Source: a virus. From it: a stretch of DNA of 39,195 bases. This document shows, piece by piece, positions 15,278 through 33,246 of this stretch (position 1 is its first letter; each line of letters begins with the position of its first letter). The DNA lies in the IMG/VR virus record IMGVR_UViG_3300029319_000148, positions 1 through 39,195 of that record; one strand, given 5' to 3'. Below the pieces are notes generated by a model. The model saw nothing but the letters and a program-made list of their open reading frames with translations, had not been told where the DNA came from and ran no database searches. A program made the translations under genes and the position numbers.

Positions 15278-15856
15278 TTAAAAGGTGATTGTCCACTTAA
15301 ATACTAAAGAAAAGGTGCTGGTCTTTTTTAAACCAGTGAATGGCCTGTATGCAACTAATATCGGGCTAGGAGTATTTAGTCCTCTCGGGTTACGCATGAA
15401 TAATCCTACCTCATCAATTTCAGTGCTTAATCCGTTTGCGGTGTTTTTATCCAAGATTAAATTAAATCGAACTGTCGTTGGTCGCACTTTTTGAATATTG
15501 GAATAAGGAATCCGTACAAAGGCTTTAGTCGAAGATGTTTTAGCTCCATTTTCAATCGGCTCTAGATTTTCAACTAAAATCTCAGACCCAGAACTCTCGT
15601 AATTAGCCTCGGATAAAGGTGTCGTTAATGAGTATGTCCAATACCCATAGCTTGCAGTGTCACCGCCTGTGCCAACTTGAAAGTTTAATATTTGAAAGTC
15701 TCGAATATTAGAAGCTCCGCTTCCTGCAAAAAGGTGAGCTAACCCCACGCCCATGCCTGATACAATAACATTTTGCTCATCAAAATGAATTTCTTCAGTT
15801 CCATCATCATATATTTTTAGGACTTGTAAGTGACCTACTGGTTTTAATTTACTCAT
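15278..15856 (-). CDS. Stand-alone tail anchor-domain protein, paralogue of the sulfatase N-terminus
   Basis: A 192-aa protein that consists only of the domain found at residues 1-203 of the upstream sulfatase protein. Shared landmarks in order are a start strand with [IV]-Y-x-D-G, FQVGTGG (FQVGGGH in the sulfatase), PLSEANY (PFSEEQY), EVGLFMRNPRG (EFGLFSKNPSG), ILVAYRPF (LLLAYKQF) and a final FSLVFKWTITF (FSLVVDWQIQF). The 638-aa gene carries the same ends. It ends exactly where the domain ends, so it may be a fibre base without cargo, a cap, or a partner that forms mixed oligomers with the two larger paralogues. Function inferred: attachment to the baseplate or to a fibre. It follows the sulfatase gene by 6 bases. 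Confidence 0.8.
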   Translation of the reverse strand: MSKLKPVGHLQVLKIYDDGTEEIHFDEQNVIVSGMGVGLAHLFAGSGASNIRDFQILNFQVGTGGDTASYGYWTYSLTTPLSEANYESSGSEILVENLEPIENGAKTSSTKAFVRIPYSNIQKVRPTTVRFNLILDKNTANGLSTEIDEVGLFMRNPRGLNTPSPILVAYRPFTGLKKTSTFSLVFKWTITF

Positions 15857-15862
15857 TTTCTA

Positions 15863-18800
15863 TTAATCCTGATCCTCATCTAAAGTGTAAAATACAGAGT
15901 ATGGAGTGGTGGTAGGGTCAGATCTGGTTGAAATAAAGCCTCCCAGACCGCTAGTCATCGCAGAATATATCCTCACCATATTCCAATAATGCACACTATT
16001 ATTTAGTGTTCCTGTAGCTCCAGCCTCAGTTACTGCTTCCTTAACAAACTGCTTTAATATATATTTAGGGACCAAATAATCAATAGCAGCATTTCCCGTC
16101 GTAGTATCTCTGTATGCCTTCCACGCCTCTGGAATATAATCTTCTAACTCATACTTATCTACGGAGGAAAAGTTTAAGTCTTGTGTGTGGTATAGCTCTT
16201 CTAAAAATCTTCCATAACCATCATCCTGCTGATATTCGTCAGCAGCCTCCTCAGTCACTCCATTGCCTGCGGGTCTAAGTATTTTCCAAACTCCTGCACT
16301 TGCATCAGGAATTTTATCATATACGACTGTTCCTGTGTGCCCGTTAGCTTTTAAGGCTTGACGAACTGTAAACCCGTAAGAATTAGTAGGACCCTCTAAA
16401 TACCCCTCAAACCATGTAGGCTTTAAGCGAACAGACATGGTTCGTCTAATCCTTCTAGGCACTACGGGATCTCCTGGAGAAGGTATATCATCATTTGTTG
16501 AATTTGAATCTGCGCCTAACACCGCCCCATTATTTAAATTTAATAATTTTACTCGGTTCTCTGTATCTCTTCCAGCCCAACCTGTGAATGACCCCCACCT
16601 TCTATTGCTGCCCACAGAGTTACCTAAGGGAAAGAATATTTCTCCATAAGAAAACTGCCTACCGTGATTAGAAGCATCCACGCTACCTGTCAACACAGGA
16701 TAAAATGATTTAGAATCACTAGGTACTTGCGTATCTTGGACTGCATCTACACCTCCCCCAATGTGAACCACGGTAGCCAAAAGGTCAACTAAATCAATCA
16801 TAGCTTCCGTCGATGCCCCAGATACTACAGGCGTCGAGGATCCCCCATAGGCAACAAAAGGCACAAGTAATCCTGTGTCATACAAAGATGCCTTAAACTG
16901 ATTTGCAGAATCATTTTCCCCGCCCCGCCTAACAGCCGAGGGGCTTAGACTACTAGCATACCAATCTAGGTTTAATAAGTTATCATAGGTAGGACCTAAA
17001 CCTCCAGAAGCGGCTGATTCGTGAGCAGGAGCAACACTCGAAGAAGTACCCAACCCTAGCGTTCCAGAGCAGAATGCTCCACGCCTAGCAAAATCAGTAG
17101 AAACGGACCCATTATCGGAAGTTACGATAAAGATCGTTCTCGATCTTCTATCGTGATCCAAGCCCTCCATAAAAGAACTTAAAGACGAATCAAAGTTCTC
17201 CATCTGTGCATTAACATTAATCCAAGTAGCTGATGCATTTCCAGGGGATGCCGATAGGGATGCAACCTGTTGATGGTTATCATTGTAATATGGGTTATGC
17301 ACCATGGAGCTTGGGGGATATGTATAGGGCGTGTGGGGGGCATGAGTTGTAACATACATGAAGAAAGGCTCAGGGCAGTTAACAGTATCGTTGAAATGAG
17401 AACTCGCCTCAGAAAATAAGAAATTTGTTGCAAACGAACTTGCAGCACCTTGGGCGTAAGGCTCGCCTGAAGCGGTTTGGCTTAATGCCATATAGCCTGT
17501 ATCAGAAACAGTTAAGACTTCGTTTTTTCCTCGCGTATTAGTCCCAGACAATGCGAAGAAGTTAACATAGCCCATGCCGTTTCCATTTTGTCCATTACCA
17601 AAGTGAGGCCATCCAGCCTCATCCTCACCTTCAGCTAAGTTTTTCCAGGTATTGCTTGAAGTTTCAAATCCTGGTCTAGGGCCAGTGTTTAAGTTACCCC
17701 AGGTTGCAACATAATGATCCCACTTACCTACACTGGATACATGCCCCCAAGACTCCCCGAACTTCTTTCCTGGTCCATCTTGAGAGACCTCGGTAGCACC
17801 TTGAACAAAAGAGGTTGAAGTAAAGTTACCTTCCACAAAAATTTCTGCCTCAGCGTGCGCTGGGTAATAGGTTACTGCTGTGTTACCGTCTTCGCCTCCC
17901 ATTTGCTGAGTAAAATATAGAATCCTATTAAATCCGCCTGTTTGTCCCGCTGGTTGAGAGCTTTGCCTTACACGCATTCTATAGCCAAAAGAGTCTTGTG
18001 ATGGATACTGAGTGTAGTGATCATACTCATATGGCAAGGCTCTATAGTCTTTCCACTCAAATAAATTAAAATCCTCTATAACATCGTTTGTAAGAATATA
18101 CCTAGGTGAAGCATAAGAACCAAAGCCGAATTTTATTGCCTCTGCAAGTTTCTTTTGGATATTCGCAGCCGCTTCTTCAGAAGTGCTCCCTAGTGTAGGT
18201 AAGAATTCAGAAGTTCCATCGCCGTCTACCCAATAAGGAATCACCACCTGATCTGCGTCAGTATCATAACCTGAGATCCATTGCCTTTGTGCAGTAGCCC
18301 CAGGAATATTTTGCATTGTATACCCCTTGTATGCAAAATGGATGTCAGTAGGAGTTGAAGAATTGCCATCAATTTTCAAAAACCTAAATACTAAAGATAA
18401 ATTATCAGGATCTTGACCTTGGCTTTGATAAATGGTTCCATCAGTATCAGTCCAAGTTGTATTAGCCCCTCCCCCAAACTTCAACGAAATCATTTTTAAG
18501 CCCGATCCATCAAGAGAATTAACTAAGGTCTGAGCAGCGGTGTCTGTACTAGTTGGCTGAAGCAAAAGAGCGGCCCTAGCGTTGGCTAAAGTAATTACAT
18601 CATCTTCCTCAGAATAGATAACCTCATCTTCCCAATTGGCTAAGTGCCATTTGCCAAAGAAGGATGTATGGTATCCTATTTCCTTTAAGTACTCCGCAAA
18701 AACTTTTTGTTTTGCGATTGTGTTTGGCTGACCTAGAGCATCTCTAACGGCATCGCTCAGAAGGGCGTAATCACCGTCCTGATAAAGCTGACTCCCTTCA

Positions 18801-19930
18801 GCGTCTAAAACTGTGCTGGAGCACTGCTGAAACTCATACTCAACATTGAATGCGGCAAGTCCCCCTCTGGTAGAGCGGAGAGTTTTCTTAGCTTGTTGGC
18901 CCACGGTCCCATCGCCTGTAACTTTGCCATATCCTGGTCCCCAAACAGGTGGGAGTATATTGCCATTTTCATCTTGCCCTGTGGACTTACAACTAAAGTT
19001 GTACTTTCCTGCCATAATAGTTGATCGGGTAGGACTGCACATAGGCATTGCTCTTGCATTATAAAATAACATCCCTGAAGAGGCTAGAGCACTTAGAGTT
19101 GGCGTATGTGGGTAAATACCACACCCATCAGGATGATCTAATTGGCTGAATGGATTAGCGTTTGGATAACCCGCGCTGGACAAATCGAAAGCATTTTTAT
19201 TATTATACAGACCTAAGTACTCAAAGCCTACATCGTCAAGCATAATAAAAACAACATTATACTGAGTTCCTGGGGGACCTCCACCCTCCCCTCCTGCAAC
19301 AATGGATTCAGAACCCTTATCACCATCAATAAATTGTATTTGCCAATCAACGACTAAGGAAAAATCACTGCTTTTTGTGATCGCCTCATCGCTAGGAAAT
19401 TGTTTATATGCCAAGAGTAAGGACTTGTCGGTGCCCCTGGAACCACTTGGGTTTTTAGAAAACAAACCGAACTCAGAAATAGTGTAGCCATTCCCCATAC
19501 TTTCAGGAAGTTCAAGCCTGAAATGAACAACATTATCAATGACCTTACTGCTATAGTGATTTGATAAAGAGACAAAAGACTCTCTTGTTACTCTTTCCTC
19601 GATCACAGGCGAAAAATTTGTAGCGTGTAGTTTGTTTAAGTTATGTGTGGTAACCAAAAACTCAGCGTTCTCTCCATACTGCTCCTCGGAAAAAGGAGCA
19701 TCGAGATTTGAAATAAACCTATTATCAAAGGAGTCTGCGTCAGTGGTTAAGTGCCCACCCCCTACCTGAAAGTATCCAATAATATGATCAGAAATTTTTG
19801 AGGAGCCTGTATCAGTAAAGATATTTGCAACACTAACACCTAAAGAATCGGTTAAGATATTATGATCTTTACAGAGGGTCTCTTTTCTACCATCTGTATA
19901 AACTTTACTAATTTCAACAAAACCTTTCAT
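15863..19930 (-). CDS. Tail-anchored sulfatase (formylglycine-type)
   Basis: A 1355-aa fusion. Residues 1-203 are the anchor domain shared with both neighbouring genes. A Gly-rich linker (213-220, GGEGGGPP) leads to a sulfatase of the alkaline-phosphatase superfamily: NVVFIMLDD (225-233, metal-binding Asp pair), CSPTR (298-302, Cys298 to be oxidised to formylglycine), GKWH (426-429), HAPHTP (863-868) and SDNG (938-941, metal-binding Asp-Asn), then K1013 in KASLYDTGLLVPF. All key positions are intact. About 320 residues (437-760) are inserted between GKWH and the later histidine, including a LamG-like stretch near 725-750. The C-terminal subdomain (1215-1260) resembles that of bacterial sulfatases. 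Substrate is probably a sulfated polysaccharide. Cys298 needs host FGE or anSME. Expression is coupled to the 638-aa gene by an ATGA overlap, with GGAG upstream. Confidence 0.93.
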   Translation of the reverse strand: MKGFVEISKVYTDGRKETLCKDHNILTDSLGVSVANIFTDTGSSKISDHIIGYFQVGGGHLTTDADSFDNRFISNLDAPFSEEQYGENAEFLVTTHNLNKLHATNFSPVIEERVTRESFVSLSNHYSSKVIDNVVHFRLELPESMGNGYTISEFGLFSKNPSGSRGTDKSLLLAYKQFPSDEAITKSSDFSLVVDWQIQFIDGDKGSESIVAGGEGGGPPGTQYNVVFIMLDDVGFEYLGLYNNKNAFDLSSAGYPNANPFSQLDHPDGCGIYPHTPTLSALASSGMLFYNARAMPMCSPTRSTIMAGKYNFSCKSTGQDENGNILPPVWGPGYGKVTGDGTVGQQAKKTLRSTRGGLAAFNVEYEFQQCSSTVLDAEGSQLYQDGDYALLSDAVRDALGQPNTIAKQKVFAEYLKEIGYHTSFFGKWHLANWEDEVIYSEEDDVITLANARAALLLQPTSTDTAAQTLVNSLDGSGLKMISLKFGGGANTTWTDTDGTIYQSQGQDPDNLSLVFRFLKIDGNSSTPTDIHFAYKGYTMQNIPGATAQRQWISGYDTDADQVVIPYWVDGDGTSEFLPTLGSTSEEAAANIQKKLAEAIKFGFGSYASPRYILTNDVIEDFNLFEWKDYRALPYEYDHYTQYPSQDSFGYRMRVRQSSQPAGQTGGFNRILYFTQQMGGEDGNTAVTYYPAHAEAEIFVEGNFTSTSFVQGATEVSQDGPGKKFGESWGHVSSVGKWDHYVATWGNLNTGPRPGFETSSNTWKNLAEGEDEAGWPHFGNGQNGNGMGYVNFFALSGTNTRGKNEVLTVSDTGYMALSQTASGEPYAQGAASSFATNFLFSEASSHFNDTVNCPEPFFMYVTTHAPHTPYTYPPSSMVHNPYYNDNHQQVASLSASPGNASATWINVNAQMENFDSSLSSFMEGLDHDRRSRTIFIVTSDNGSVSTDFARRGAFCSGTLGLGTSSSVAPAHESAASGGLGPTYDNLLNLDWYASSLSPSAVRRGGENDSANQFKASLYDTGLLVPFVAYGGSSTPVVSGASTEAMIDLVDLLATVVHIGGGVDAVQDTQVPSDSKSFYPVLTGSVDASNHGRQFSYGEIFFPLGNSVGSNRRWGSFTGWAGRDTENRVKLLNLNNGAVLGADSNSTNDDIPSPGDPVVPRRIRRTMSVRLKPTWFEGYLEGPTNSYGFTVRQALKANGHTGTVVYDKIPDASAGVWKILRPAGNGVTEEAADEYQQDDGYGRFLEELYHTQDLNFSSVDKYELEDYIPEAWKAYRDTTTGNAAIDYLVPKYILKQFVKEAVTEAGATGTLNNSVHYWNMVRIYSAMTSGLGGFISTRSDPTTTPYSVFYTLDEDQD

Positions 19931-21843
19931 ATAAATTTAATTCTCCACACAAGAGTTAGATCCTGATATTTAAAGCACCCAGGTTCATTACTATGGTCTT
20001 TTATTGCAGCTAAATTTTTCGTAAAATTCTTTTCCGCAAACAACTTATATACTAGTCTATTATAGCCAGAGCTAAATCTTAAAGGGAAGGTTGGAGGTAT
20101 TTTAGGTATCCCATGAGGATCACGATCAGAGAGAGTCTTCTCTAAATCAATTGTCCATAAACCACACTTGTATAAACCACCATACATATTAGCCAAACCC
20201 AAATCACCCGAAGAGATAGTGCAAATGTACATAACCTCTCCTGTAGATGAAAAATCCGACAGTGCCGATACAATCATACCTGAGGCTGGATCTGCGCCCT
20301 CACCACCTTCCAAGGGTGCCGAAATTGAGCTTGGGTAGATGGGAAAGTCTCCTGTCGTAGAGGAGGGAGCATAAGCTCTAATGAAACCATTCTCATCCAT
20401 GGATCGAATGGCGGAAGAGTTAAAGAAGTTATTACCAAATGTTGCATTTGTGGAATTTGGATATGCCCCGCTAATCTCAACATAATCACTAAGCTTATCA
20501 ATGTTTGATATGGAATTTAATATCGCAAAATTCGTTCCACTTGTATGCGGATAACAACCTAAAAACAAATCGCCATTTATACCACCCTCATCAAAAGTCG
20601 GAGTTAATCCAGCTACACGCTTAAATTCAGAAGCCCCATACCTCTCTTCTAATTGCCAGCCATACATTTCAAGGGGGGCCATTTGCCCTCCTGCGCCTAG
20701 GAATTTACACTGGGCTCTCATCGAATGCGTGTTCTTTGTTGCAGCGTCAGTTCCCAAACCAGGAAGAACTAACTCAAATCTATACCACCCTGCGGACCCG
20801 TCTGCTCCAGAGGCAGGTGTTATGTAGGCGTCCGCTCCATTTGGAGTGCTTACTAAATTTCCTACTGTACCCAAAACCGCGCTGGGGGAACCAAACTCCA
20901 AAGTCTGTTGGTCAAAATAGGAAATGCCCACTGAATGATTTTTTGATCCTGTAGTATCTCTTAAATTAATTATGATAGAAGAAGTGGTTCCACTAGCACC
21001 TACAGGTTGTTTTGCATAAAAACTTAAAGTGTGATCTACATTATGGTGAAACTGAGTTCTATGCTCAGGAACTAAATGTAGCAGTTGCTTATTGTTTACA
21101 GCACTTACTAAAAACGAAGAGGTGCCATAGAAAGGGCCTGTGTTATCGCCCTGTAACTCAATTGAACTAAGCCCCCCTAGAGAAGAGGACCACATCACAT
21201 TATTGCCTAACCTAAAGTCTTGCTCTACGGGAGGGCCATCTGTAAAGGAAAGCAAATTAGGGTTAGTGCCGCACATAATCTTATTAAGATTGTGTCCGTG
21301 GGCGTGAGATCTACCCTGCATCATCCTATCGCCCATTTTGTGCGCCTGACCTGAAACATAATCAATCGCCGTCATCGTATTAGGTTCTAGTTGTGTGTCA
21401 TTAGGGTTAGGCGTTGTTCCTGGATCCCGCTTGGGATCATAAGAAGATGTGGTTGAATCAATGTTTTCATTCTCTAATGAAACAGCCCTAATTACATTGT
21501 CATACTTAACGGCTGATACATACTTCGCATACTCAGGAAGTGCAGAGAAATAAACTGTTTCTGAGCCAGTAGGTGGCGACCAAATATAATAAGATGATAC
21601 ATCTCCAGGATGGAAATGCGCGTTTTCTTTATAAGCGTCCGAGCTTTTACCAAAAGAAATAGCTTGTACGGTAAAGTTTGAAGAATCTCCTGGGCCAGTT
21701 GTTACATCTGCAACAGAAGAGGGTAGTGTTAGCATGTCGCAGATTGTTTCACCTGCTCCATTTACAATCAGATTATTTTCAGTATGAATTAACTCCTGTT
21801 CTGGAGTTCCAAACTTTGAATATATTTCTACTACGCCAATCAT
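19927..21843 (-). CDS. Tail adhesin with split anchor domain and inserted glycan-binding-like module (638 aa)
   Basis: The first about 110 residues (GVVEIYSKFG, NNLIVNGAG) and the last about 60 (YKCGLWTIDL, NRLVYKLFAEKNF, YQDLTLVWRIKFI) match the beginning and end of the 192-aa anchor protein, so about 460 residues have been inserted into that domain rather than added at its end. The insert contains a jelly-roll-like module (about 270-400: LSFYAKQPVG, WYRFELVLPGLG, YGWQLEERYG) with the look of carbohydrate-binding modules of the CBM4/9 kind. A similar module is present in the 2214-aa protein upstream. Likely a receptor- or glycan-binding tail component. The start overlaps the 2214-aa gene by 4 bp. 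The domain names are from pattern, not from a search. Confidence 0.75.
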   Translation of the reverse strand: MIGVVEIYSKFGTPEQELIHTENNLIVNGAGETICDMLTLPSSVADVTTGPGDSSNFTVQAISFGKSSDAYKENAHFHPGDVSSYYIWSPPTGSETVYFSALPEYAKYVSAVKYDNVIRAVSLENENIDSTTSSYDPKRDPGTTPNPNDTQLEPNTMTAIDYVSGQAHKMGDRMMQGRSHAHGHNLNKIMCGTNPNLLSFTDGPPVEQDFRLGNNVMWSSSLGGLSSIELQGDNTGPFYGTSSFLVSAVNNKQLLHLVPEHRTQFHHNVDHTLSFYAKQPVGASGTTSSIIINLRDTTGSKNHSVGISYFDQQTLEFGSPSAVLGTVGNLVSTPNGADAYITPASGADGSAGWYRFELVLPGLGTDAATKNTHSMRAQCKFLGAGGQMAPLEMYGWQLEERYGASEFKRVAGLTPTFDEGGINGDLFLGCYPHTSGTNFAILNSISNIDKLSDYVEISGAYPNSTNATFGNNFFNSSAIRSMDENGFIRAYAPSSTTGDFPIYPSSISAPLEGGEGADPASGMIVSALSDFSSTGEVMYICTISSGDLGLANMYGGLYKCGLWTIDLEKTLSDRDPHGIPKIPPTFPLRFSSGYNRLVYKLFAEKNFTKNLAAIKDHSNEPGCFKYQDLTLVWRIKFI

Positions 21844-24800
21844 CCTAAAGTATCCACCCGTGTAAAGTTTTCATAATTTAAAACCTTAGTTCCAATATGT
21901 GGGTTGTCAGGGTTAATAGTGTAATCTAACCTGCTTCCACCACTTGCGGCATGTATTGCAGAAGAATCAAACATTCGTCTTGTATTGAATGCTGTTCCTC
22001 CTACACCTTTACCGATCTTATTAAAGTACCTAAATAAGTGCAACAATTCTTTGGGTTCGACAGGGATAATGCCAGCAACACTTCTTACTAAGTTAGTCCC
22101 AGCGGTTGAGCCTGACACTGTAAGAACCCTATCCAAGCCTAGTTCCAAAGGATAATTGGCAGGCCTCACTAGTCTTTTGTTTATGTCCATGTAAATATCG
22201 CCTGCGTACTGCAAACCACTATTATCATACAATGTAACTTTATTATAAATCTCTGAGTTGAATACCTCATTATTTTCGGCATCTTTCAGGACTGTAAGCT
22301 TTTGCAACCCAGAAACATCTTTATTATAAAGGCTTAAAGAACCTGATAAATCATATACTTTTTTGGGGCCGTTGATCTCATATTGTCTTGCTTCAAATGA
22401 TGGATCTACTACACTACCATTTCCTTCGTATATAATAGCGGGGACTCTTCCTGGGCTATTTTCAAAATCCTCGCTCCATATTCTTGTACCTACTCCCTCT
22501 AAGATCGTCTCTTTTCTTGTAAAGTCTACCAAATCGTCATTAATACCTTCTTTGAGATCGGGTCGAGCATTAACCATATAGCCCCAAGTGTTTAGTCTAC
22601 AAGGACTATGGATTAAGGAATCCCTTTTAGCTATAGCACCCACATTTTGACCTGTAGGTAAATTGTTTGGCAGCCCAGAATCAAAAGTATTATTATAAGC
22701 TTGCAGTGTACAACGAATTCCTAAGTTAGGTTTATTTGCCGAATCTAGCTCTAAAGCGTCATAAGGCATGGTCACCTCCATTCTAAACCAGCGTAAAGTA
22801 TTATCACTATTGGGCACGGCTTGAACAGACACCTCTCTAACTCTTGCAGCAGACGCATCCACTAGAGTATGTCCATTTGTTAATATGGAACTAGTGGCTG
22901 AGTTTTGTGCAAAACCTTCCGCAACAGGAGTTGGAAGCTCAAGAACTAGTCGAGTATACGAGTTTGCTGTACCTATAGGGGAAATGGTTAGTATTGCTGA
23001 ACTAGCATACCCATCTCTTAGCCGTTTTCTCTCGGTATCGTCGTAATTAACAGAAGCTACACCCTCCTCCGAAGTAGCAACCCAAACAGAAAAGGTGTAG
23101 TACTGATCGTCTAGTAAATCCTCTTTCCTTATGTCCCGATAAACTGACATGGGTGGGAATGTAATTCCGTGCCCCTCATCAAGAAATTTTTCGTCAAAGG
23201 AAGGGTCCTCATTCCACATAAATCTCCGCTCTTCATTGTAGTCCTCTAAATCATCTACCTCTGAAAATGCACAATCCTGATTCACTAATTGCCATATAGC
23301 TAGTCCAGAGGTCACCGATCCCATGGGATCTAAAATTGAGGGCAGAAGAGGATCCTCACCTGGAACCCATTCCCAATTTAAGTAATCATCATATGCGGCG
23401 ACTTCTTGAGCGATGTCTCCAGTTTCAACAGCGGTAGACCTCACTCTGCGTGTAGTGAAATCAATCATCGTTGGTGAACCTGGGGATATCCCCCAAGGAA
23501 AGGGAGGGCCTTGGAATAGATCGGGCTGTAAAGCGGGAGGCTCTCCAGGACTTACATAATCTGTCACTTCACCTAAAGCAGCCCAAGTTAAGCCCCCCAC
23601 ACTCCCAGGCTGGTCTTCCTCATTTCTGTAGCAAAAATACTCCTCAAGTGGATGATAGCCTTGTGGGTTGGTGTAACCCCATTGGCTGAAACCGTAAATG
23701 TGGGGTCTGTCATCTGTTGTAATGTTTTGCTGATAGGAATCGTGGCCTGCTCGGGCTAGACCTAAAAGTGTTACCCCCATTGATCTGTCCTGAGTCGCTT
23801 CTTTGGCAATAGGGTGATTACCTAAAAGGTCCCATGCATAGCACCCCCTGCCTGGGCCATCAGCTTCAGGTTCAAACCCAGTTGCAGTTTCATTTTCTCC
23901 AACCTGATATCTATTACCAATGTTTGGGTAGGGTGACCAATCATTAAATGATAAGAAGCCTTTCCTAGCACTCCAGTATTCCTTAAGTAATTCTCGTTTA
24001 TTTGCAATTTTTTCAGAAAACTCTTGACTATAGCCAAAGAATGCAATTGTTTCTAAGTTACTTTGATTAAATCCTTCTTTTAGGTTAGTCCATGTATTAT
24101 TGCAAATTCCACAGAATGGAATCTTCCCATAAGGCAATCCCCTAGTAACCATCTCCACTGGTCCTTGTTGTACAGGTGGAAACTCAAAGTACTTGTGCAT
24201 GTAAACTGCTATCTTATTGTTGCCGTCTGTTATGGGTCCTAAGCTATTCGAAATTGAACCGAACGAATCAGGATCGCGTGGAACCTTTGCATACTGTTTT
24301 GATGTTGGGTTAAAGGCACAACCCCACATTTCAAAATTGTAGGTCATTCCAGGCGAGGTCGCTCTAAAAAGATCAGTGCTAAAATATTCAAAGGACAGGT
24401 CGGCAACACCTTCACTGGCAAAAGATGCAAAGGCAGGCTCACTTCCATCAGGCAATAAAAATCTTGTGGAAGTTACTGATTGCAACTGCTTCGTTACATC
24501 TGGAATAACTCCATCATACGGAATAGCAGCAGCATCGTTTAAGGTTTTATCAACCACACGCAAATCGTCTAGAATAACATAGTTACCTTCTGCGTTATTT
24601 TGTGGAAGAGGAAATACTTCAACTATGTAATTCTGTGTTTTTCCACTAAGATTTGCAAAAGCTCGATGAAGCTGAACACTCCTTCCATTATAAACATCCG
24701 ACTGTGCTCCACTCTTGTAGTATGTGGCATACTCAAAAGGCAAATCAGTTTCACTATTTTTTGTATTGAAATTTATCTTTGCAGTTTGGATATGATCCTT

Positions 24801-27800
24801 ATTAACATAAGATAGAACACTGTTATTGGCTACATTTTCATTACAATTTGCGTTTTGATTCAACAACATCTCTTCTCCACCAGAGAATACATGTGCGTAA
24901 TTGTTTACAATATTATTGATTCCAGCGTTCCCATTTACGACAGAAGAGGCTTGAACCATCTCCCATTTGTTTCTTGGAGTCCAGACAAAAAATACTATAT
25001 CTCCTTTAGAGGTAGCTTCATTTTTTGTTCTTATTAGGATACCTACACTACCACCGCCTATAGCAGCAGAGTTTTCCTTAGATGTTAGGTAATTTAAAGT
25101 TAATTCAAAATCATGCTCAGGGATAAGAATATTTTTCTGTTGCGGATCTATGCCACGCATGGTAAATTGAACTCTTGGTAGCCCTGTTCCTCCGTTCTTT
25201 AATACCACGCATTTATTATTAATTAGATAATTATCATCACTTAAGACATCAGACTCCTGAGACTCATCGAGATTGTAAACACCTAAAACATTATTGTTTA
25301 TCAAAGAGGTAGAGGTGTCTATGAAGTTCATACTGCTTAAGATAGTGGGGCATCTATATTCGGCAGCGCCGTAATATGGGCCTTGTGCGAGAGAGGAATT
25401 ATCAAACAGGTCGATGTAAAAACTCCCATCACTATACTCTTCATCGTTGCCCTGGGCGTATAAATCTTGCAATTTAATGTTATAAAGGCTGTTTGCTTTT
25501 CTGGAAACTAGCTGGGCACTTAAATCCACAGCAGAAGCGTCAATAGAGAAATTAGCATTGTGATAAATTGGCCCATACACATGAGAAAGGATTGTGGGTC
25601 CTCCCTCATCGACATCCTTAAGGGAGGCTTCAGGCAATGAACTGGCTACAGGAGAAGTTAGGAAATATTCATTATAATAATTATAAATTGAGTGTAGCCC
25701 ATCTCTCCTAGAAGTAGTTACACTTCGAATATCTAATACAGGAGAAGTGTATTTCCCATATCCAGTATCCTCAATTCTATTTGCCAATGAGTCTTCTAAA
25801 TTCATCCAATAGGATGAAGCTTGAAGCAATGTGGAATTGTAGTCAGTAGTCTCCTTAGCTAAAGCTTTTTTCTTTTTTTCATTAAAGCCAAAGAATAGAG
25901 CAGCTTCCTGAGAAATTTGATCCCGTCTAACAAATTGATCACAGGAAGAGAAAGATAAACTATCATTTCCTCGGGGTGAGAAAGTGTTGCTCACATCTAC
26001 GCCATAGAAGGAGTCTGCATTTGTAGTTGTAGCACAGCTTCTAGAGTAGACAGAAGATAGGTTTGCAGCAGTTGGAGAGGCAAAACTAATGGAGGATGGT
26101 ATGTAACCGAGATTAGTGAAATCTAAAATTGAACTTGTGTTATTATAGAAGGAGGGCATATTTCTGCCATCTCTTCCATACCAGCGTGCCGATTCTAAAG
26201 TGTTATGAAAATTTCTTCTTCGTAAAGATCTTCTGGGTATTGCGCTTGCGGCAGGAACCACCTCATGGGTGTTTACTACAGAATTAGAAATATTATTAGA
26301 ATATCTAGCTTGATTTCTCTTGAATACAGGAAGGAGGTTGTGGTTCACGGTGCTTCTTGAATCATCGTACCCAAAATCCTGACCTACTGAATCATCAGCA
26401 CCTCTGATATATGTCCCGCATACTTCATAGTTAGATAAGGCAGTTGACGATGCGGGTGTATCTTCATTGGGCCACCTAATTGTTGGACAAGCAAAATCAA
26501 TGCCACTAGGCTGCTCCACTGCGGACAAACTTAATCGCGTTCTAGGGATAGCCTTGGCTGGGCTGAATTCATCAATAATATCTAATGAATCTAAAATTTC
26601 TGCTGTTGTATGCAAAGCAGAGGAGTCTGCGAAGAAGGTCCCTGAGAAGTGACCAGCACAAACAGAGAAATCATAAGTAGATGATTTACCATTCCATAGA
26701 GACAGATAATCATATTTGTCACTATCATAACTTTGTAAAATGGTATTGTAATTAGGCGGTTGCTCTTGCGATGAAGTAAAGAACACATATGAATTACCTA
26801 TAAACAAGTCATTGGTTGTGTTCGCTGTAAGAATGTAAGTATTAGTATAATTAAAGAATGCGTCTTGCACCCCCTGCGACACGCAAAAGAAGCTAAGTTG
26901 TTTTTTAAAGAAGCTTAGGAGTTCTTCTGTAACAACACAATTTTTATAAAACTTCTCCTCCTCCCATGGTGGGATGGGGAAGTCTCTCCCTCTGTATTTA
27001 AATGAGAATTTTGGATCACCTAAAATTGCCACCCTCTTAGAATCTGAGTCAAAAAATGTCCCAGTATAGTAAGTGTTACCTACTTGGATTACTGGACCAA
27101 AATAAGCTTCGCCACTGTCAAGAATATTAACCCTAAAGGGTTCATTTCTAACAAAGAATAGTTGTGGGTATCTCTGAACAGCATTCCTTAGTATGCAATC
27201 TACAGCCGCTCTAACATTATTATCTCTATTTACAGGGTCAAATATATCAATTCCATAACTAGCTGCTTTTGCCTCATCAAAAGTAGAGCTATTAAAAACA
27301 TCAGTATCAGTTTTTAAAATATAGTATAGTAAGTTTGGAATATAGGACTCATATAATTCTGTTATGGCCGAACTTGTATCAATGGGGTTGTTGACAATAA
27401 CTGTATTCATTGCATCAACCAAACCGCGCTTAGTTCCTTTTTTCTTATATAAAGAGACTGCGTTTCTTATTTGGTTTCTCCACGAATTCTCATCATTACC
27501 TCTTAATCTCCAACCAATAAGATTTGAGAGGTAAGGAAGAAATTCTTTTGGGCACTCAGATATCGAAGTTAAGAGTTCTAAATTTTCTACCTGACTATCT
27601 ATATCTCTGAATAGATATGAAATAGCTCGATAAAATTTATTCAACGGTCCCGCTACTTCTGTACCAGCAAGAAAAGTATTTGCACCTAGATGAGTCTCTA
27701 TAGCGTTTTTAACCGTTACATCTTCTCTATCAATGTGAAGTGGTGAATAGATCACATCAATAAAGGTGTGTAATTTATCTAAATTTTGTATTCCACTTGT

Positions 27801-28484
27801 GTATGTCGTATCCCCTCTCCAGAACATGCTGGGGACAATTTGCTCATCTACAGAACTCAAAGATGCAAGGTTATTCCAAAGATAAGTTTGGAAGTCCTTA
27901 ACGCCATCATTGATCTTATACTGCTTTCCTTTATACAAGATATTAGTAATAGAATCAACAACAATAGAAGAGGGGTGGTATGTGGCAGCACTTGTATTTA
28001 AAAAGTAAAGCCATCCTAAATTATTAACAAGATACTCATGCGTGCTTGCTGCTGTGGTCGCAAAGACGCTAGAAGTATCAGTCGCCAAATCATTTGAGTT
28101 CAATCTTAATTTGGGTAGTAAATTAGTCCGAAGATAATTCTTAAATTTAGATGCAGTGGGGTAATCTTCTAGCTTAACACCTAAAGGAGTTAAAATCTTT
28201 TTGGTAAACTTATTTATATCTAAATCTGTAAGTTTATTCTGCTTGATAAAATACCTAGAAAACCCAGTGGGTGTATTAATATCGCTTGCAGTGAGAGAGC
28301 CAGCGATTGCGCTAACATTCAAAACTGAGGTAATGTTGTCCAATGCCCGTATGTGGCTATTGATTACTCTATCAGTAAATTTTATTTGAGTGCCACTAAC
28401 CTCTGCATCTTGATTTAGATACAAGTCAGGCGTAATAATTTTTACCGCATCAACAAAGTTAAGTTTTGAAAATTTTCTTGCCAT
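21840..28484 (-). CDS. Giant baseplate wedge / tail-fibre protein, P2 gpI (T4 gp7)-like N-terminus (2214 aa)
   Basis: Near residues 311-359 the sequence CPKEFLPYLSNLIGWRLRG then YKKKGTKRGLVDAMN matches the P2 gpI / tail protein I family: a helix with P-x-[FL]-L-P-x-L, an L-I-G-W core, then Y-x-x-K-G-T. Its position directly after the J/gp6-like gene fits the conserved W-J-I order. Canonical gpI is about 180 aa, so nearly 1850 residues are extra. These include beta-rich, probably glycan-binding modules: about 1090-1325 (ending VILDDLRVVD) and about 1790-1970 (YYTFSVWVATSEEG, LRWFRMEVTMP, NTWGYMVN). The first about 300 residues look helical and may be the true wedge contact region. It starts on the base following the previous stop. 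Likely a wedge protein that also forms a peripheral appendage. Confidence 0.8.
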   Translation of the reverse strand: MARKFSKLNFVDAVKIITPDLYLNQDAEVSGTQIKFTDRVINSHIRALDNITSVLNVSAIAGSLTASDINTPTGFSRYFIKQNKLTDLDINKFTKKILTPLGVKLEDYPTASKFKNYLRTNLLPKLRLNSNDLATDTSSVFATTAASTHEYLVNNLGWLYFLNTSAATYHPSSIVVDSITNILYKGKQYKINDGVKDFQTYLWNNLASLSSVDEQIVPSMFWRGDTTYTSGIQNLDKLHTFIDVIYSPLHIDREDVTVKNAIETHLGANTFLAGTEVAGPLNKFYRAISYLFRDIDSQVENLELLTSISECPKEFLPYLSNLIGWRLRGNDENSWRNQIRNAVSLYKKKGTKRGLVDAMNTVIVNNPIDTSSAITELYESYIPNLLYYILKTDTDVFNSSTFDEAKAASYGIDIFDPVNRDNNVRAAVDCILRNAVQRYPQLFFVRNEPFRVNILDSGEAYFGPVIQVGNTYYTGTFFDSDSKRVAILGDPKFSFKYRGRDFPIPPWEEEKFYKNCVVTEELLSFFKKQLSFFCVSQGVQDAFFNYTNTYILTANTTNDLFIGNSYVFFTSSQEQPPNYNTILQSYDSDKYDYLSLWNGKSSTYDFSVCAGHFSGTFFADSSALHTTAEILDSLDIIDEFSPAKAIPRTRLSLSAVEQPSGIDFACPTIRWPNEDTPASSTALSNYEVCGTYIRGADDSVGQDFGYDDSRSTVNHNLLPVFKRNQARYSNNISNSVVNTHEVVPAASAIPRRSLRRRNFHNTLESARWYGRDGRNMPSFYNNTSSILDFTNLGYIPSSISFASPTAANLSSVYSRSCATTTNADSFYGVDVSNTFSPRGNDSLSFSSCDQFVRRDQISQEAALFFGFNEKKKKALAKETTDYNSTLLQASSYWMNLEDSLANRIEDTGYGKYTSPVLDIRSVTTSRRDGLHSIYNYYNEYFLTSPVASSLPEASLKDVDEGGPTILSHVYGPIYHNANFSIDASAVDLSAQLVSRKANSLYNIKLQDLYAQGNDEEYSDGSFYIDLFDNSSLAQGPYYGAAEYRCPTILSSMNFIDTSTSLINNNVLGVYNLDESQESDVLSDDNYLINNKCVVLKNGGTGLPRVQFTMRGIDPQQKNILIPEHDFELTLNYLTSKENSAAIGGGSVGILIRTKNEATSKGDIVFFVWTPRNKWEMVQASSVVNGNAGINNIVNNYAHVFSGGEEMLLNQNANCNENVANNSVLSYVNKDHIQTAKINFNTKNSETDLPFEYATYYKSGAQSDVYNGRSVQLHRAFANLSGKTQNYIVEVFPLPQNNAEGNYVILDDLRVVDKTLNDAAAIPYDGVIPDVTKQLQSVTSTRFLLPDGSEPAFASFASEGVADLSFEYFSTDLFRATSPGMTYNFEMWGCAFNPTSKQYAKVPRDPDSFGSISNSLGPITDGNNKIAVYMHKYFEFPPVQQGPVEMVTRGLPYGKIPFCGICNNTWTNLKEGFNQSNLETIAFFGYSQEFSEKIANKRELLKEYWSARKGFLSFNDWSPYPNIGNRYQVGENETATGFEPEADGPGRGCYAWDLLGNHPIAKEATQDRSMGVTLLGLARAGHDSYQQNITTDDRPHIYGFSQWGYTNPQGYHPLEEYFCYRNEEDQPGSVGGLTWAALGEVTDYVSPGEPPALQPDLFQGPPFPWGISPGSPTMIDFTTRRVRSTAVETGDIAQEVAAYDDYLNWEWVPGEDPLLPSILDPMGSVTSGLAIWQLVNQDCAFSEVDDLEDYNEERRFMWNEDPSFDEKFLDEGHGITFPPMSVYRDIRKEDLLDDQYYTFSVWVATSEEGVASVNYDDTERKRLRDGYASSAILTISPIGTANSYTRLVLELPTPVAEGFAQNSATSSILTNGHTLVDASAARVREVSVQAVPNSDNTLRWFRMEVTMPYDALELDSANKPNLGIRCTLQAYNNTFDSGLPNNLPTGQNVGAIAKRDSLIHSPCRLNTWGYMVNARPDLKEGINDDLVDFTRKETILEGVGTRIWSEDFENSPGRVPAIIYEGNGSVVDPSFEARQYEINGPKKVYDLSGSLSLYNKDVSGLQKLTVLKDAENNEVFNSEIYNKVTLYDNSGLQYAGDIYMDINKRLVRPANYPLELGLDRVLTVSGSTAGTNLVRSVAGIIPVEPKELLHLFRYFNKIGKGVGGTAFNTRRMFDSSAIHAASGGSRLDYTINPDNPHIGTKVLNYENFTRVDTLG

Positions 28485-30086
28485 TTAAATGTAACTTATA
28501 TTTACTGTTAGGTTATTCAATGATATTACTTCATTAAAGTCTACTGAAATGTTATCGGACACATTATCAATTGTTGAGTACCTGACCTCCGCCACATCAA
28601 AAATCTTTCTATTTAATTCTTGTGGGACAAATTTTACGCCAAAATCAAATTTGGAATAGGAGAAGAATGAGTTTACTATAGAAGAGATCTTGCCTTTCAC
28701 CACATCCTCAATATTTTGTAAGGAGGAATCGACATACGCTGTAACCACAAGGTCTAATGTTCTTATCAAACCATCAACAATAACCAATTGATCAGTTAAC
28801 ATCTTTTTGTCCTCCATTGCTGCTAAAAGATTTGTTTTGTAATCAACGGTTGCTTTTTGCAGTTGGTTATCCGTAGCCTTCTGCAAAACAAACACATCTA
28901 CTATATTAGCAGAGGAATAAGCCTTCCTTGTTGATGCAGTGCCTATCGCTGCTCCTCCATTTGGGCTAACATATCTAGAAACGAAAGACTTGTAATCACC
29001 TAAGGTCACTAAACGATCTTGCTGCTTGAAGACTAAAGGCGCATTAAGCTTCGCGTCCTCAACCGTCTCCGCGTCAATACCACCAGTAATAACAGTAGTG
29101 TTGGTTATAATTCCATCACCTTGTGATGTATTGACAACATTACTTAAAGCATTTCCTAATACATTACCTCTGGCACCACCTCCAACTCTATAAACGACTC
29201 TATAAGACGAGGAGTTTGGAGGAGAAGCACCGAGATTACCATCACCAAATCTAATTGTAGCATTATATAGCTCGTCATACACCACTTCAAAGATCTTGTC
29301 CGTGGATCCAGACGCACTAAACAAATTATCAACTTGCTTGTATGTTCCTGATAGCGAGTTTTCTGATGTAACAAAGACTTGAACACTATTTTCAATCACG
29401 GGTCCTTGAGTTAAAGCAATAGACTTGAATGCGTCTGCTGTGTCAAAGGTGCCTGTTTCTTGTGCTAACGCACCCTCAAGTAAAGCGAGATTACTCCAGG
29501 TTGTGCTTGTGTCCGTGGAATCATTAAGCGATAATTCAATGTCTGTGCTATTGGAGGCAAGTGATTGAATCTTACCATTAGACACGGGGTACATCGTGTA
29601 AGTTATCTGACCTCCATCTAGAGGAGAAGAAATGGTAACAACGCGATCTGATGCAGCAATAGTAGGATTAGCGGTTGCAGCAGAATTCAAAGTTAATCTT
29701 GCGCTACCGCCTGCCGAAGTGGGGCCTTTTAAACGCACGCCGATTAAGTTTAAAAGCTTTGATACATTTCTTCTTGTTCTTGCGGTTGGCAAATACGCTT
29801 CGTTTGCTAAAGCATCTGCTTTAAAGGACATTACGGCTCCCATGTATGCCACTAACTCAGTAAACATCATCCCATAATCAGATTCTGTAAAGTTCTGATA
29901 GTCCGTGGCATACGCAGCCTTCATATAAGCAATTAGAGAGTCTCTTAGCCCAGCAAAATCAGTGGCGGCATAATCAATTAACGCTTCTTTTTTGAGATAA
30001 TCTTTTCCACTTTGAATCAGTTTTTGATAGTCAGATTCGGCAGTGGTAAATGGAACAGGATCGGGCGTGTTATAATTTGTAGTCAT
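28485..30086 (-). CDS. Baseplate wedge protein, P2 gpJ / T4 gp6-like
   Basis: The 533-aa protein has the J/gp6 signature: DYAATDFAGLRDSLIAYMK (residues 38-56), then FTESDYGMMFTELVAYMG (66-83) and NEAYLPTARTRRNVSKLLNLIGVRLKG (95-121 in part), followed by a beta domain and a Gly-rich region (FGDGNLGASPP, VYRVGGGARGN, 260-310) typical of baseplate J proteins. The family dimerises to form the inner ring of the contractile baseplate, holding it in the pre-contraction state and triggering sheath contraction. It lies 11 bases after the gp25-like gene and directly before the gpI-like gene, the order seen in P2-type and T4-type baseplates. Length is close to T4 gp6 (660) and larger than P2 J (302). 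Confidence 0.92.
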   Translation of the reverse strand: MTTNYNTPDPVPFTTAESDYQKLIQSGKDYLKKEALIDYAATDFAGLRDSLIAYMKAAYATDYQNFTESDYGMMFTELVAYMGAVMSFKADALANEAYLPTARTRRNVSKLLNLIGVRLKGPTSAGGSARLTLNSAATANPTIAASDRVVTISSPLDGGQITYTMYPVSNGKIQSLASNSTDIELSLNDSTDTSTTWSNLALLEGALAQETGTFDTADAFKSIALTQGPVIENSVQVFVTSENSLSGTYKQVDNLFSASGSTDKIFEVVYDELYNATIRFGDGNLGASPPNSSSYRVVYRVGGGARGNVLGNALSNVVNTSQGDGIITNTTVITGGIDAETVEDAKLNAPLVFKQQDRLVTLGDYKSFVSRYVSPNGGAAIGTASTRKAYSSANIVDVFVLQKATDNQLQKATVDYKTNLLAAMEDKKMLTDQLVIVDGLIRTLDLVVTAYVDSSLQNIEDVVKGKISSIVNSFFSYSKFDFGVKFVPQELNRKIFDVAEVRYSTIDNVSDNISVDFNEVISLNNLTVNISYI

Positions 30087-30097
30087 GAGCTTAAGTT

Positions 30098-30568
30098 TTA
30101 CGGTCTATGATAAACAGTTATTTCTGTATCTGTTTGAAATTCTAATGAAAAAACATTTAAACTTATTCTCAATCCAGGTATTCCAAAGGCTGATCCTTCA
30201 TCTAAATATTTAATTTGCATATCCTTAATTTGCACATCAGGAATGTAGTCATATATTGCTGTGGCAATTCTTGTTTGTATCGCAATGACAAGTTCTTCTG
30301 TGAGGGGCTCAAATAAAAACTCCTCTAAGTTTACTCCAAAGTTAGGTAGCATCAATCTTTCCTCACCGCCCGTTCCAAGTAACTGAGTGAGCTGACCTTT
30401 TAGCCTATCAATTCCTGCGGTTTGTGCAAAAATTCCCTTCGCTCCGCTGTCTTTGTCGTAGAGTGGGAAGCGAACGCCCTTAACGCTTTGGGAGGGATTA
30501 GCGTTGCTTATTTGGTCTTTTATGCGTTGAGAAGGCAACACCCCATAAATTGTTGTCGTATTCGTCAT
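30098..30568 (-). CDS. Baseplate wedge protein, gp25 / gpW-like
   Basis: A 156-aa protein with the GPW/gp25 core: GEERLMLPNFGVNLEEFLFEP (residues 68-88), then ELVIAIQTRIATAIYDYIPDV and a final hydrophobic beta pair (GLRISLNVF, TEITVYHRP). The conserved E-R-x-[MR]-x-P-x-[FY]-G strand-turn is intact. Despite its old name as a lysozyme, gp25 acts as the wedge component that nucleates sheath assembly. An extra about 45 N-terminal residues (KGVRFPLYDKDSG) precede the core. The ATG overlaps the previous stop by 4 bp, and the next gene is the J/gp6-like protein, as expected. Confidence 0.93.
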   Translation of the reverse strand: MTNTTTIYGVLPSQRIKDQISNANPSQSVKGVRFPLYDKDSGAKGIFAQTAGIDRLKGQLTQLLGTGGEERLMLPNFGVNLEEFLFEPLTEELVIAIQTRIATAIYDYIPDVQIKDMQIKYLDEGSAFGIPGLRISLNVFSLEFQTDTEITVYHRP

Positions 30569-33246
30569 ATCTCAATATTTTTGAAGAAGCCACTTTGTGC
30601 TTCATAGTTTTTAAGGACTTCCTTAGTAGTTAGGGGTCGAGAATAAAACTTTAAACTTCCAACATTGCCGTGAAGGCTACCTGTGTAGCCGTGTCTAGTG
30701 CCCATAAAGCCACCTGCACTGGCTGAGAAATCAATAGGATATCCTTCAGTCCACCCGCCTCCTACAATCCAAGGGGTGAAGTAAGTATCATTCTGTGGTC
30801 CTGTATCGAAAGCGGTAACTCCAGGTGCCTGATTAACAGTTCCAGAACTATAGTAAAAACTACTGTAGGGTTTATTTTTAGGAACTATGAAGGTAGGTAC
30901 TTTGGGCGCGGTAAAAGATTTAACGCCAAACACATCAGAAATTGCCGAAGTAGAAAGAATGCTTCCGTCTAGATATACCGTACACTCATCCTTTGGAACA
31001 TTGAATGCTATGTGTAAATGAATATAGGTGGACGATACATCAGATAATGATTTTCCGTTTGACAAAGCAGAGGAAACATCAACCTTCATTCGATGATATC
31101 CTGTAAAACTACAATCTTTAATCTTAGGAATGAACTCAACTGAGTCATCCCCAAAAGATTGCGTTGGCGCAATAAAGAAACAAGAAGATACAACAGTGGC
31201 CGAGCTATCTAACCCTGCGTTCAGCCCTGGGTTTGTATTTGGCCCAGGGATAATGGGAGAATCAGAGAATATGACAGGATCCCGAGTAAAACCTATAAGT
31301 AGGCCTTTTGTATTCTCCTGTTGTTCTGATGCAAGTAAAGAGCTAACGCTATTTACTTGAGGAGCACCACCCATGTTTTCGTTACCTATTAGAATTCTGT
31401 AGTAATTATAATCTGTCCAAGCACCATTATTATTGTTCAATAGGCGAGCGGGTTCTGTTGGATAGGTTTCTTGTTGAACTAGGTCGTAACCAAAGAAAGG
31501 TATATGCAACCAACAATCAATGCTGCAACCTTCAGGATTGTACATTAAATTTTGAAATTCTTTACTAGAGGGTAATCTAAAATAACCTGCCGTTTTTGTG
31601 ATCTCTCCTGTATTAGTTTTTATTCTAGAGATTCCTGCTAAATAAGGCACCCCTAATCCCGTATTAAACACATTCTGAGCTATACCTACTAGCTGTCCAT
31701 CCAAATCTGAGGAGGGCTGTGCTGGATTGGTTGTGTTGTACAGTGTTGAAGAAGGTGATACAGTGGATCCTTTTAAGAAATTGTAGATTGCAAATAATCC
31801 GCTTGTAGTAACAGAGTCTGTTAAGGAAACAGCGGGGGCTGCTTGGTCGTTTATAGAAGGATTAAAAACGATAGAACCTAGACCTACGGGGGGAATCACC
31901 ACGGGAGATAAAAGAGAGTTAGATTCAGTTCCATAGTTTCTAACGAACTTAGGCTTGATTGGCAGCACAACCCCCGACACCTCACCAGAATCAAAAGACA
32001 ACTCCTTCTGCTTATCCACAGGAATGTTTACAGCAACACTACTTAAAAAGGAGAAGTCGTTAACTGGAATTTGTCCTGGTTCAAACACTTCGCTGGAGCC
32101 AAGCAAATCAGAAGATTTTACAGCAACTTCAATCTGCTTTTTGCGTTTATCTTCTTTTTCTTTATATGTTGATACTACTGAAAGTAAATTTTGTCTAGTG
32201 TTTACCACTAAAGCCGAGTCTTCGGTGTAACCACCACCTAGTAACTCTTCTACCTGAGACTCTGTATCATATACGAGTTTGTCCTTTTGCTCTTGCAATA
32301 CAGCTAAAAAGTAGTCTTTAGCATAGTAAGTTTGAAGTTCTGAGGAATTATCAATATAAGAAAGATCAAAAATTGTATTAACATACTCATTTAATTGATC
32401 AATCGTAATCATGCTTCCTTTGCCTCCAAGATTAGGTGCATAATTTAGGTTCCACCTTTCATTATCAACAACAAAGCCTATGTCAGAAGCAGATGGGATC
32501 TCTTTTCCATTATATAAACGCTCCTGGGAATCGAAGTAAAGACCATCCTCTGATAAAACAAACACACCTTGTTTAGAAACAGGGGGACCAAAGGTTAATC
32601 TAAAGATAGGACCGTCATCTTCTTCTGCCGCAGCGGCTTCTAGTTGCCTCTCAAAGAGGATGTTTCCTATTGTCTCTATCTGACTAGAGCATTGAGCGGC
32701 AAAATTCAATGCATCTTGAATTTGTGATTGAGCTATTGCAAAGTTAGCTTGGCGCGTATTTTCGGTGTATTGGTTCCCTCCGTAAGTAGAGGCAATTCCA
32801 CCAAAACCACCCTGGTCAAGGGGTCCATTACTATCCAACCACGCCCCAAACTGTCCCAAGCAGTCCATAACTTCTTCGAACCCGTCAACTGCTGCCTCTC
32901 CTGCCTCAACAAAAGCATTTATTTGGCCTGTCCAGTTGGCTGCCGTCTCTAGCCAATCAATATCAAAACCGTTTTGAGACGATTGAGAAAATAATTCAAA
33001 TCTTCCTGTTGCTGTATTATAAGAAATGATTCCAGTATTCTTAAATACCTCATTAACCTTATCCGCTACTTGCTGTCGTGCTGTCTTTCTCCCCTCAAAT
33101 AATGCTTTACTTAAAACCGATAATGAACCACCGCCCATAAACTGTAGAACATCAACACCAAAGTTTGTTGCACACTTTGGAATACCATACTTTGTTGTTA
33201 AAAACAAAGCAGGATTTGTAAACATTGTAGGGTTGATTAGTGCCAT
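30565..33246 (-). CDS. Tail/baseplate protein with C-terminal LamG-like lectin domain (893 aa)
   Basis: The N-terminal about 230 residues are helical (residues 40-70, and 160-215 with AIAQSQIQDALNF and ETIGNILFERQLEAAAAEED). A beta segment follows (IFRLTFGPPVSKQGVFVL, VLSEDGLYFDS), and a further helical region. The last about 400 residues have the course of a LamG/concanavalin-A-like lectin: an early CSIDCWLHIPFF, HLHIAFNVPKDECTVYLDGS, then GNVGSLKFYSRPLTTKEVLKNYEAQSG at the end, the latter a near-textbook LamG finish. It is located between the spike and gp25-like genes, so it is likely a baseplate-associated protein that binds glycan or carries a fibre. The N-terminal family is not recognised. 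Confidence 0.7.
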   Translation of the reverse strand: MALINPTMFTNPALFLTTKYGIPKCATNFGVDVLQFMGGGSLSVLSKALFEGRKTARQQVADKVNEVFKNTGIISYNTATGRFELFSQSSQNGFDIDWLETAANWTGQINAFVEAGEAAVDGFEEVMDCLGQFGAWLDSNGPLDQGGFGGIASTYGGNQYTENTRQANFAIAQSQIQDALNFAAQCSSQIETIGNILFERQLEAAAAEEDDGPIFRLTFGPPVSKQGVFVLSEDGLYFDSQERLYNGKEIPSASDIGFVVDNERWNLNYAPNLGGKGSMITIDQLNEYVNTIFDLSYIDNSSELQTYYAKDYFLAVLQEQKDKLVYDTESQVEELLGGGYTEDSALVVNTRQNLLSVVSTYKEKEDKRKKQIEVAVKSSDLLGSSEVFEPGQIPVNDFSFLSSVAVNIPVDKQKELSFDSGEVSGVVLPIKPKFVRNYGTESNSLLSPVVIPPVGLGSIVFNPSINDQAAPAVSLTDSVTTSGLFAIYNFLKGSTVSPSSTLYNTTNPAQPSSDLDGQLVGIAQNVFNTGLGVPYLAGISRIKTNTGEITKTAGYFRLPSSKEFQNLMYNPEGCSIDCWLHIPFFGYDLVQQETYPTEPARLLNNNNGAWTDYNYYRILIGNENMGGAPQVNSVSSLLASEQQENTKGLLIGFTRDPVIFSDSPIIPGPNTNPGLNAGLDSSATVVSSCFFIAPTQSFGDDSVEFIPKIKDCSFTGYHRMKVDVSSALSNGKSLSDVSSTYIHLHIAFNVPKDECTVYLDGSILSTSAISDVFGVKSFTAPKVPTFIVPKNKPYSSFYYSSGTVNQAPGVTAFDTGPQNDTYFTPWIVGGGWTEGYPIDFSASAGGFMGTRHGYTGSLHGNVGSLKFYSRPLTTKEVLKNYEAQSGFFKNIEI

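Follow-up and report, generated by a model that had tools for sequence, protein, structure and literature searches.

Phage tail proteins that deacetylate polysaccharides are the closest described counterparts of the gene analysed here. The gp63.1 deacetylase of phage G7C is essential for infection and leaves the O-chain intact, and the same carrier is fitted with a lyase rather than a deacetylase in Alt63 (PMC10743462); PP99 gp55 deacetylates O-polysaccharide (PMC6989608), and SGNH deacetylases are frequent among the receptor-binding proteins of Klebsiella prophages (PMC13123978). Our gene lies in IMG/VR record IMGVR_UViG_3300029319_000148, a 39-kb metagenome-derived virus record whose full 39,195 nucleotides we call the window, and encodes a protein of 1355 amino acids (aa) in which a tail anchor domain is joined to a sulfatase. 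We consider it probable, judging from sequence and structure comparison, that this is a virion-borne S1 carbohydrate sulfatase, docked via its anchor, matured by the host and desulfating a surface polysaccharide at adsorption.

An S1 sulfatase with an intact predicted active site

The gene (15863..19930, minus strand) is a single frame with an ATG start and no internal stops, with exactly the ends given in an earlier sequence-only reading of this DNA, which named no strand. The Pfam family PF00884 (Sulfatase) matches the protein at E=3.3e-23 and 82.9 bits, where the cut-off is 25, which excludes a chance match. The ten residues of the type-I (S1) active site, D232, D233, C298, R302, K427, H429, H866, D939, N940 and K1013, are all present where that reading had placed them, and its assignment of the protein to the formylglycine-type sulfatases is borne out by the sequence, family and structure evidence. 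In an alignment of 16 viral copies with 68 bacterial homologues, none of the ten is substituted in any viral copy; the same columns are largely conserved across the bacterial sequences, a set pre-selected for a CxPxR-like motif, so that their conservation is partly by choice. The PDB sequences closest to the window protein are carbohydrate sulfatases, scattered over several S1 subfamilies, and PHROG 19870 matches the sulfatase region at 2.6e-13. PF00884 is the sole family that the Pfam scan found in the 1355-aa protein: it found no backbone-cleaving (lyase or glycosidase) domain, and the anchor, the insert described below and the C-terminus gave no significant Pfam family (Ntox37 at E=0.19 is noise).

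The fold was modelled in AlphaFold2 on a relative (L009; related loci carry L numbers throughout) that is 48% identical and lacks the insert, with bacterial rows added to the alignment. The model has a mean predicted local distance difference test score (pLDDT) of 73 and a predicted template modelling score of 0.85. Each of the 50 top PDB matches listed is a sulfatase, led by a mucin O-glycan sulfatase (2.9e-14), and the template modelling scores (TM-scores) to the target are 0.48-0.59. A viral structure library gave good matches to giant-virus sulfatases only. Sequence and model together support the prediction that the window protein is an S1-family sulfatase of the alkaline-phosphatase-like sulfatase fold with an intact site. 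In the tree the viral sulfatases make up a single clade, separate from the cellular sulfatases included in the comparison; they are ~19-27% identical to these and carry insertions.

A tail anchor inside a tail operon

The anchor (residues 1-203) is homologous to the whole of the downstream 192-aa tail protein (E=1.2e-19, 34% identity) and is matched by PHROG 5417 at 4.9e-4. In the upstream 638-aa tail protein the first ~45 residues alone match it, and by profile-profile comparison only (hhalign probability 95.5, E=1.6e-8). The earlier proposal that the domain is repeated in both adjacent tail genes thus stands for the downstream gene and only in part for the upstream one. The sulfatase gene overlaps the stop of the 638-aa gene by four bases (ATGA) and is separated by six bases from the 192-aa gene, which places it inside the tail operon.

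Two scans, with the anchor domain and with the sulfatase family, gathered more than 60 IMG/VR contigs that share this tail gene order: an 893-aa protein, gp25, gp6, a Tail_P2_I protein, a 638-aa-like protein, an optional gene, the 192-aa anchor protein, a 1177-aa fibre-like protein and a 735-aa protein. A homologous anchor protein of 190-240 aa sits at a conserved place in most of these modules, and the optional slot, where the window has its sulfatase, is empty in most of these viruses.

Two tail carriers and exchangeable enzymes

The sulfatase is present in 23 related viral contigs, on two kinds of tail protein. It is fused to the anchor in the optional slot in 13 of them (the window, L001, L005, L006, L007, which is partial, L008, L009, L050, L189, L190, L191, L192 and L201) and is found at the C-terminus of the 893-aa protein in the other ten (L193, L194, L195, L196, L197, L198, L199, L202, L203 and L205; the L203 and L205 contigs end before the carrier, and carriage there was judged by position). 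The junction is sharp: the carrier of the window ends ...KNYEAQSGFFKNIEI, and that of L196, ...EAQRGYFKNIDLKLHEFNYLTGEGFNVVLILVDD, continues directly into the sulfatase, the last carrier residues (...YFKNI) being followed by ...LHEFN..GEGFNVV of the enzyme. None of the contigs examined has both kinds of fusion, and the 893-aa homologue is unextended in L192 and L201, where the sulfatase is on the anchor.

Where the end of the 893-aa homologue is visible, it is unextended in 32 cases, bears the sulfatase in eight and bears a SASA domain (PF03629, carbohydrate acetylesterase) in six, with no other extension. The SASA domain (L041, L048, L058, L078, L018 and L020; E=1.9e-11, 3.6e-15 and 2.4e-12 in the three extensions scanned) occupies the position where other homologues bear the sulfatase, and the enzyme part is thus exchangeable on a constant carrier. 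The sulfatase-bearing viruses do not form one clade in the gp6 tree (approximately unbiased test, p=1e-29; at least three changes), and the sulfatases of L192 and L201 group with those of the 893-aa-carrier type (support 100/99), while their gp6 proteins group elsewhere. The simplest reading is that the domain has passed from virus to virus and has also switched between two virion carriers. The gene is encoded in the tail module and fused to a virion structural domain, and the pattern appears to be that of a swappable enzyme on such a carrier. The sequence-only reading had already put the enzyme on the virion; the strongest evidence for this prediction, beyond what one genome could offer, is that relatives have the domain joined to one or the other of two distinct tail proteins.

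Several related loci show further variation. A 954-aa protein in the anchor slot of L010 and L011 (9998-12862 in both) consists of the anchor and ~750 residues with no sulfatase or Pfam match; a GFSNGG motif suggests an alpha/beta-hydrolase esterase, weakly (PDB E=0.14). About 500 extra residues of unassigned nature lie between anchor and sulfatase in L192 (7826-12373) and L201 (7811-12382). In L026 (8549-10267), L027 and L028 (8217-9950) the sulfatase slot holds a protein of 572-577 aa with no family match, whose anchor is seemingly split by a large insertion. The carrier-sulfatase fusion of L202 (7202-12525; the same record as L035) is in two frames of 1117 and 657 aa, through a frameshift or a sequencing error, and a 59-kb viral contig (L204, 9842-12151) encodes a sulfatase of 769 aa that has no recognised tail carrier and is distant from the tail-fused family.

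A fast-evolving insert within the sulfatase domain

An insert of ~270 residues (446-715), not mentioned in the sequence-only reading, divides the sulfatase domain in two and starts 17 residues after H429. It is present in the window and L001 only: all eight other aligned relatives lack it, and no further homologue was found among the collected related loci. Between the window and L001 the insert is 38% identical, with a proportion of non-synonymous differences (pN) of 0.45, while identity is 84-90% and pN 0.07-0.10, with saturated synonymous sites, in the anchor, in both sulfatase parts and in the stretch that follows the insert. The ratio of pN to the synonymous proportion (pS) in the core is ~0.1, which indicates purifying selection. 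The insert is likely to be a fast-evolving recognition part; lying near the active-site sequence, and found only in the window virus and L001, its closest relative, it probably tunes glycan recognition.

Virus type and features of the window

The features are collected in Table 1. The virus is T4-like by its major capsid protein, which is 29-31% identical to cyanophage gp23 among the matches listed, and a head maturation protease is also encoded. In the phage collection the closest gp6 proteins are just 24-40% identical, so the host cannot be inferred from them. The conserved 1177-aa protein (11741-15274), which has no Pfam or PHROG match, contains repetitive asparagine-rich segments resembling a right-handed beta-helix and may be another glycan-active protein of the tail.

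Table 1. Coordinates of the sulfatase gene, its parts and the neighbouring tail and head genes in the window.
Feature	Position	Strand	Basis
Tail-anchored sulfatase gene, 1355 aa	15863..19930	-	PF00884 and residue positions
Tail anchor domain (residues 1-203), similar to PHROG 5417 and paralogous to the 192-aa tail protein next to it	19322..19930	-	Homology
Residues 204-222, Gly-rich linker	19265..19321	-	Sequence; 68% identity to L001 against ~87-90% either side
Residues 223-445, sulfatase domain part 1: D232/D233, CSPTR (298-302), GKWH (426-429)	18596..19264	-	Alignment; pN/pS ~0.09 against L001
C298-S-P-T-R302, predicted formylglycine site	19025..19039	-	Cys and Arg in 15/15 viral copies covering the site
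Residues 446-715, fast-evolving insert within the sulfatase domain	17786..18595	-	In window and L001 only
Residues 716-1355, sulfatase domain part 2 (H866, D939/N940, K1013) and C-terminal part common to all viral copies	15866..17785	-	Alignment
T4 gp23-like major capsid protein, marks virus type	1938..3566	-	PHROG 138, 8.1e-84
Core tail protein of 192 aa, homologous to the anchor over its full length	15278..15856	-	Homology and module conservation
638-aa tail protein, first ~45 residues anchor-related	19927..21843	-	Conserved in module
2214-aa Tail_P2_I-domain tail protein	21840..28484	-	PF09684, 4.6e-5
Baseplate wedge, gp6/J-like	28485..30086	-	PHROG 219, 8.5e-40
Baseplate wedge, gp25-like	30098..30568	-	PF04965, 1.3e-9
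893-aa baseplate-region protein, unextended in the window; alternative carrier in relatives	30565..33246	-	Homologue comparison

Proposed mechanism and alternative explanations

What would such an enzyme do on the tail? Homology and gene order suggest that the N-terminal domain, a copy of the neighbouring core tail protein, docks it on the baseplate or tail tip. In the producing cell the formylglycine-generating enzyme of the host would convert Cys298 to formylglycine. Once on the particle, the enzyme would use its metal-bound formylglycine hydrate to take sulfate esters off a sulfated polysaccharide of the host surface (capsule, lipopolysaccharide (LPS) or exopolysaccharide), leaving the chain uncut. 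Desulfation may serve reversible binding, unmasking and penetration at adsorption, comparably to the deacetylase tailspikes. Virion presence, host maturation, substrate and role in adsorption are the steps that we infer.

Three points weigh against this scenario. Modelled in AlphaFold2 from a shallow alignment of 11 viral rows, the window sulfatase itself reached a mean pLDDT of 35. A search for a formylglycine-generating enzyme (PF03781) in 30 viral records, among them those of 67, 75 and 130 kb, found none, although all of these are fragments (4 of 14 control genomes matched in the same search); the host must therefore probably supply formylglycine if the enzyme is active. Finally, it is we who infer that the glycan belongs to the host surface rather than to the surrounding medium. 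That no maturation enzyme was found on the contigs would also suit a catalytically idle sulfatase fold, a mere lectin for which sulfated glycans are the receptor, and a binding-only role would fit a tail tip protein. However, a domain used only for binding would be expected to lose some of its catalytic residues, and the ten are unsubstituted in every viral copy covering them, even in copies just 34-37% identical over the domain, so we consider an idle lectin unlikely. Formylglycine-dependent phosphodiesterases and phosphonate monoester hydrolases share PF00884 and the CxPxR motif, and 4upk is among the profile matches (1e-11), so the substrate might instead be a phosphate-bearing surface polymer such as teichoic acid or phosphorylated LPS. 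Phosphonate monoester hydrolases differ from sulfatases at the places of the GKWH Lys/His and of the Asp-Asn pair, though; the window retains the sulfatase-type residues at both, and the closest matches, by sequence and by structure, are carbohydrate sulfatases, which makes such an activity quite improbable.

The two remaining alternatives concern the gene rather than the chemistry. Sulfatases are listed in a review among viral auxiliary metabolic genes, with mention of groundwater (PMC10029852), and a role in releasing sulfate inside the infected cell might be considered on these grounds. The N-terminus is a tail domain, though, the start overlaps a stop within a tail operon, and the enzyme is fused to two kinds of tail protein; given these recurrent fusions we reject the metabolic role as very improbable. 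Since the window comes from a metagenome-derived record, it might also be a chimeric assembly of a bacterial sulfatase and a tail gene, an explanation that is hardly credible and is refuted by recurrence: the same fusion exists in 12 other contigs and a second kind of fusion in others, pN/pS is ~0.1 across the joined frame, and the viral clade is separate from the bacterial sulfatases sampled. A tail-mounted sulfatase working at adsorption remains our preferred explanation. On the broader proposition we are evenly divided: that this T4-like lineage has its own long-diverged tail-mounted sulfatases, swapped with acetylesterases between two tail carriers, and that the infectivity of a particle hinges on the producer cell installing formylglycine.

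Significance and comparison with known systems

To our knowledge, the known glycan enzymes of phages cut chains or remove acetyl groups. If our interpretation is true, a tail-borne sulfatase would add desulfation to these chemistries. It would fit marine bacteria bearing sulfated capsules, which are documented in Vibrio sp. KMM 8419 (PMC11641403) and Cobetia marina (PMC11766843). It predicts that sulfation of surface polysaccharides acts as a receptor or a shield, and that the formylglycine-generating enzyme of the host is an infection factor for the next round. The viral family would be a new sulfatase group, distant from the cellular enzymes in our comparison, and a source of potential glycan tools.

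In open-licence full texts we found no report of a phage or viral tail sulfatase; subscription papers and preprints lie outside this search and may hold one. The sequence-only reading, too, knew of no well-described virion desulfating enzyme, in agreement with our literature and phage-record searches. A scan of the phage collection with P0001 gave no match at E<=1e-3, and the sulfatase of a relative gave weak matches in three faecal fragments only. With a generic bacterial sulfatase as the query, 35 phage records matched, mainly faecal fragments and, where inspected, records resembling bacterial DNA. Of two such sulfatases inspected, one adjoins a radical-SAM maturase-like gene and the other, in Campylobacter phage A11a, stands beside transporter-like genes. 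In this phage (L287, MG065691.1) and in L286 (MT835490.1), both public phage records, the sulfatase regions look bacterial, with possible host-DNA contamination.

Several groups of known proteins can be compared with the window sulfatase. Two phage families, PHROG 19870 and PHROG 5417, match the sulfatase region and the anchor, and neither has a function assigned in PHROGs. The giant-virus sulfatases in BFVD (Yasminevirus, Satyrvirus and Tetraselmis virus 1) are also viral and share the fold, but they belong to eukaryotic viruses and reach TM-scores, normalised to the query, of only 0.26-0.31. The fold, the CxPxR site and the ten active-site residues are shared with the S1 carbohydrate sulfatases, such as a GalNAc-6-sulfatase (7stt), S1_16 (9fo1), S1_19 (6psm) and the mucin O-glycan sulfatase (7oqd); unlike the viral family, the S1 sulfatases compared are mostly of 450-530 aa and are not tail fusions. 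With the esterase tailspikes (G7C gp63.1, PP99 gp55 and the Klebsiella SGNH receptor-binding proteins) the predicted enzyme has in common that it is tail-borne, removes a substituent of a surface polysaccharide, leaves the chain uncut and is swapped on a constant carrier, as between G7C and Alt63. It differs in that they are acetylesterases, mostly of the SGNH type, while here the hydrolysis of sulfate esters, dependent on formylglycine maturation, is predicted in a T4-like lineage for which the searched collection contains no close cultured member. The kind of device, an enzymatic and exchangeable tail protein, is thus known, and what appears to be new is the predicted catalytic class, desulfation.

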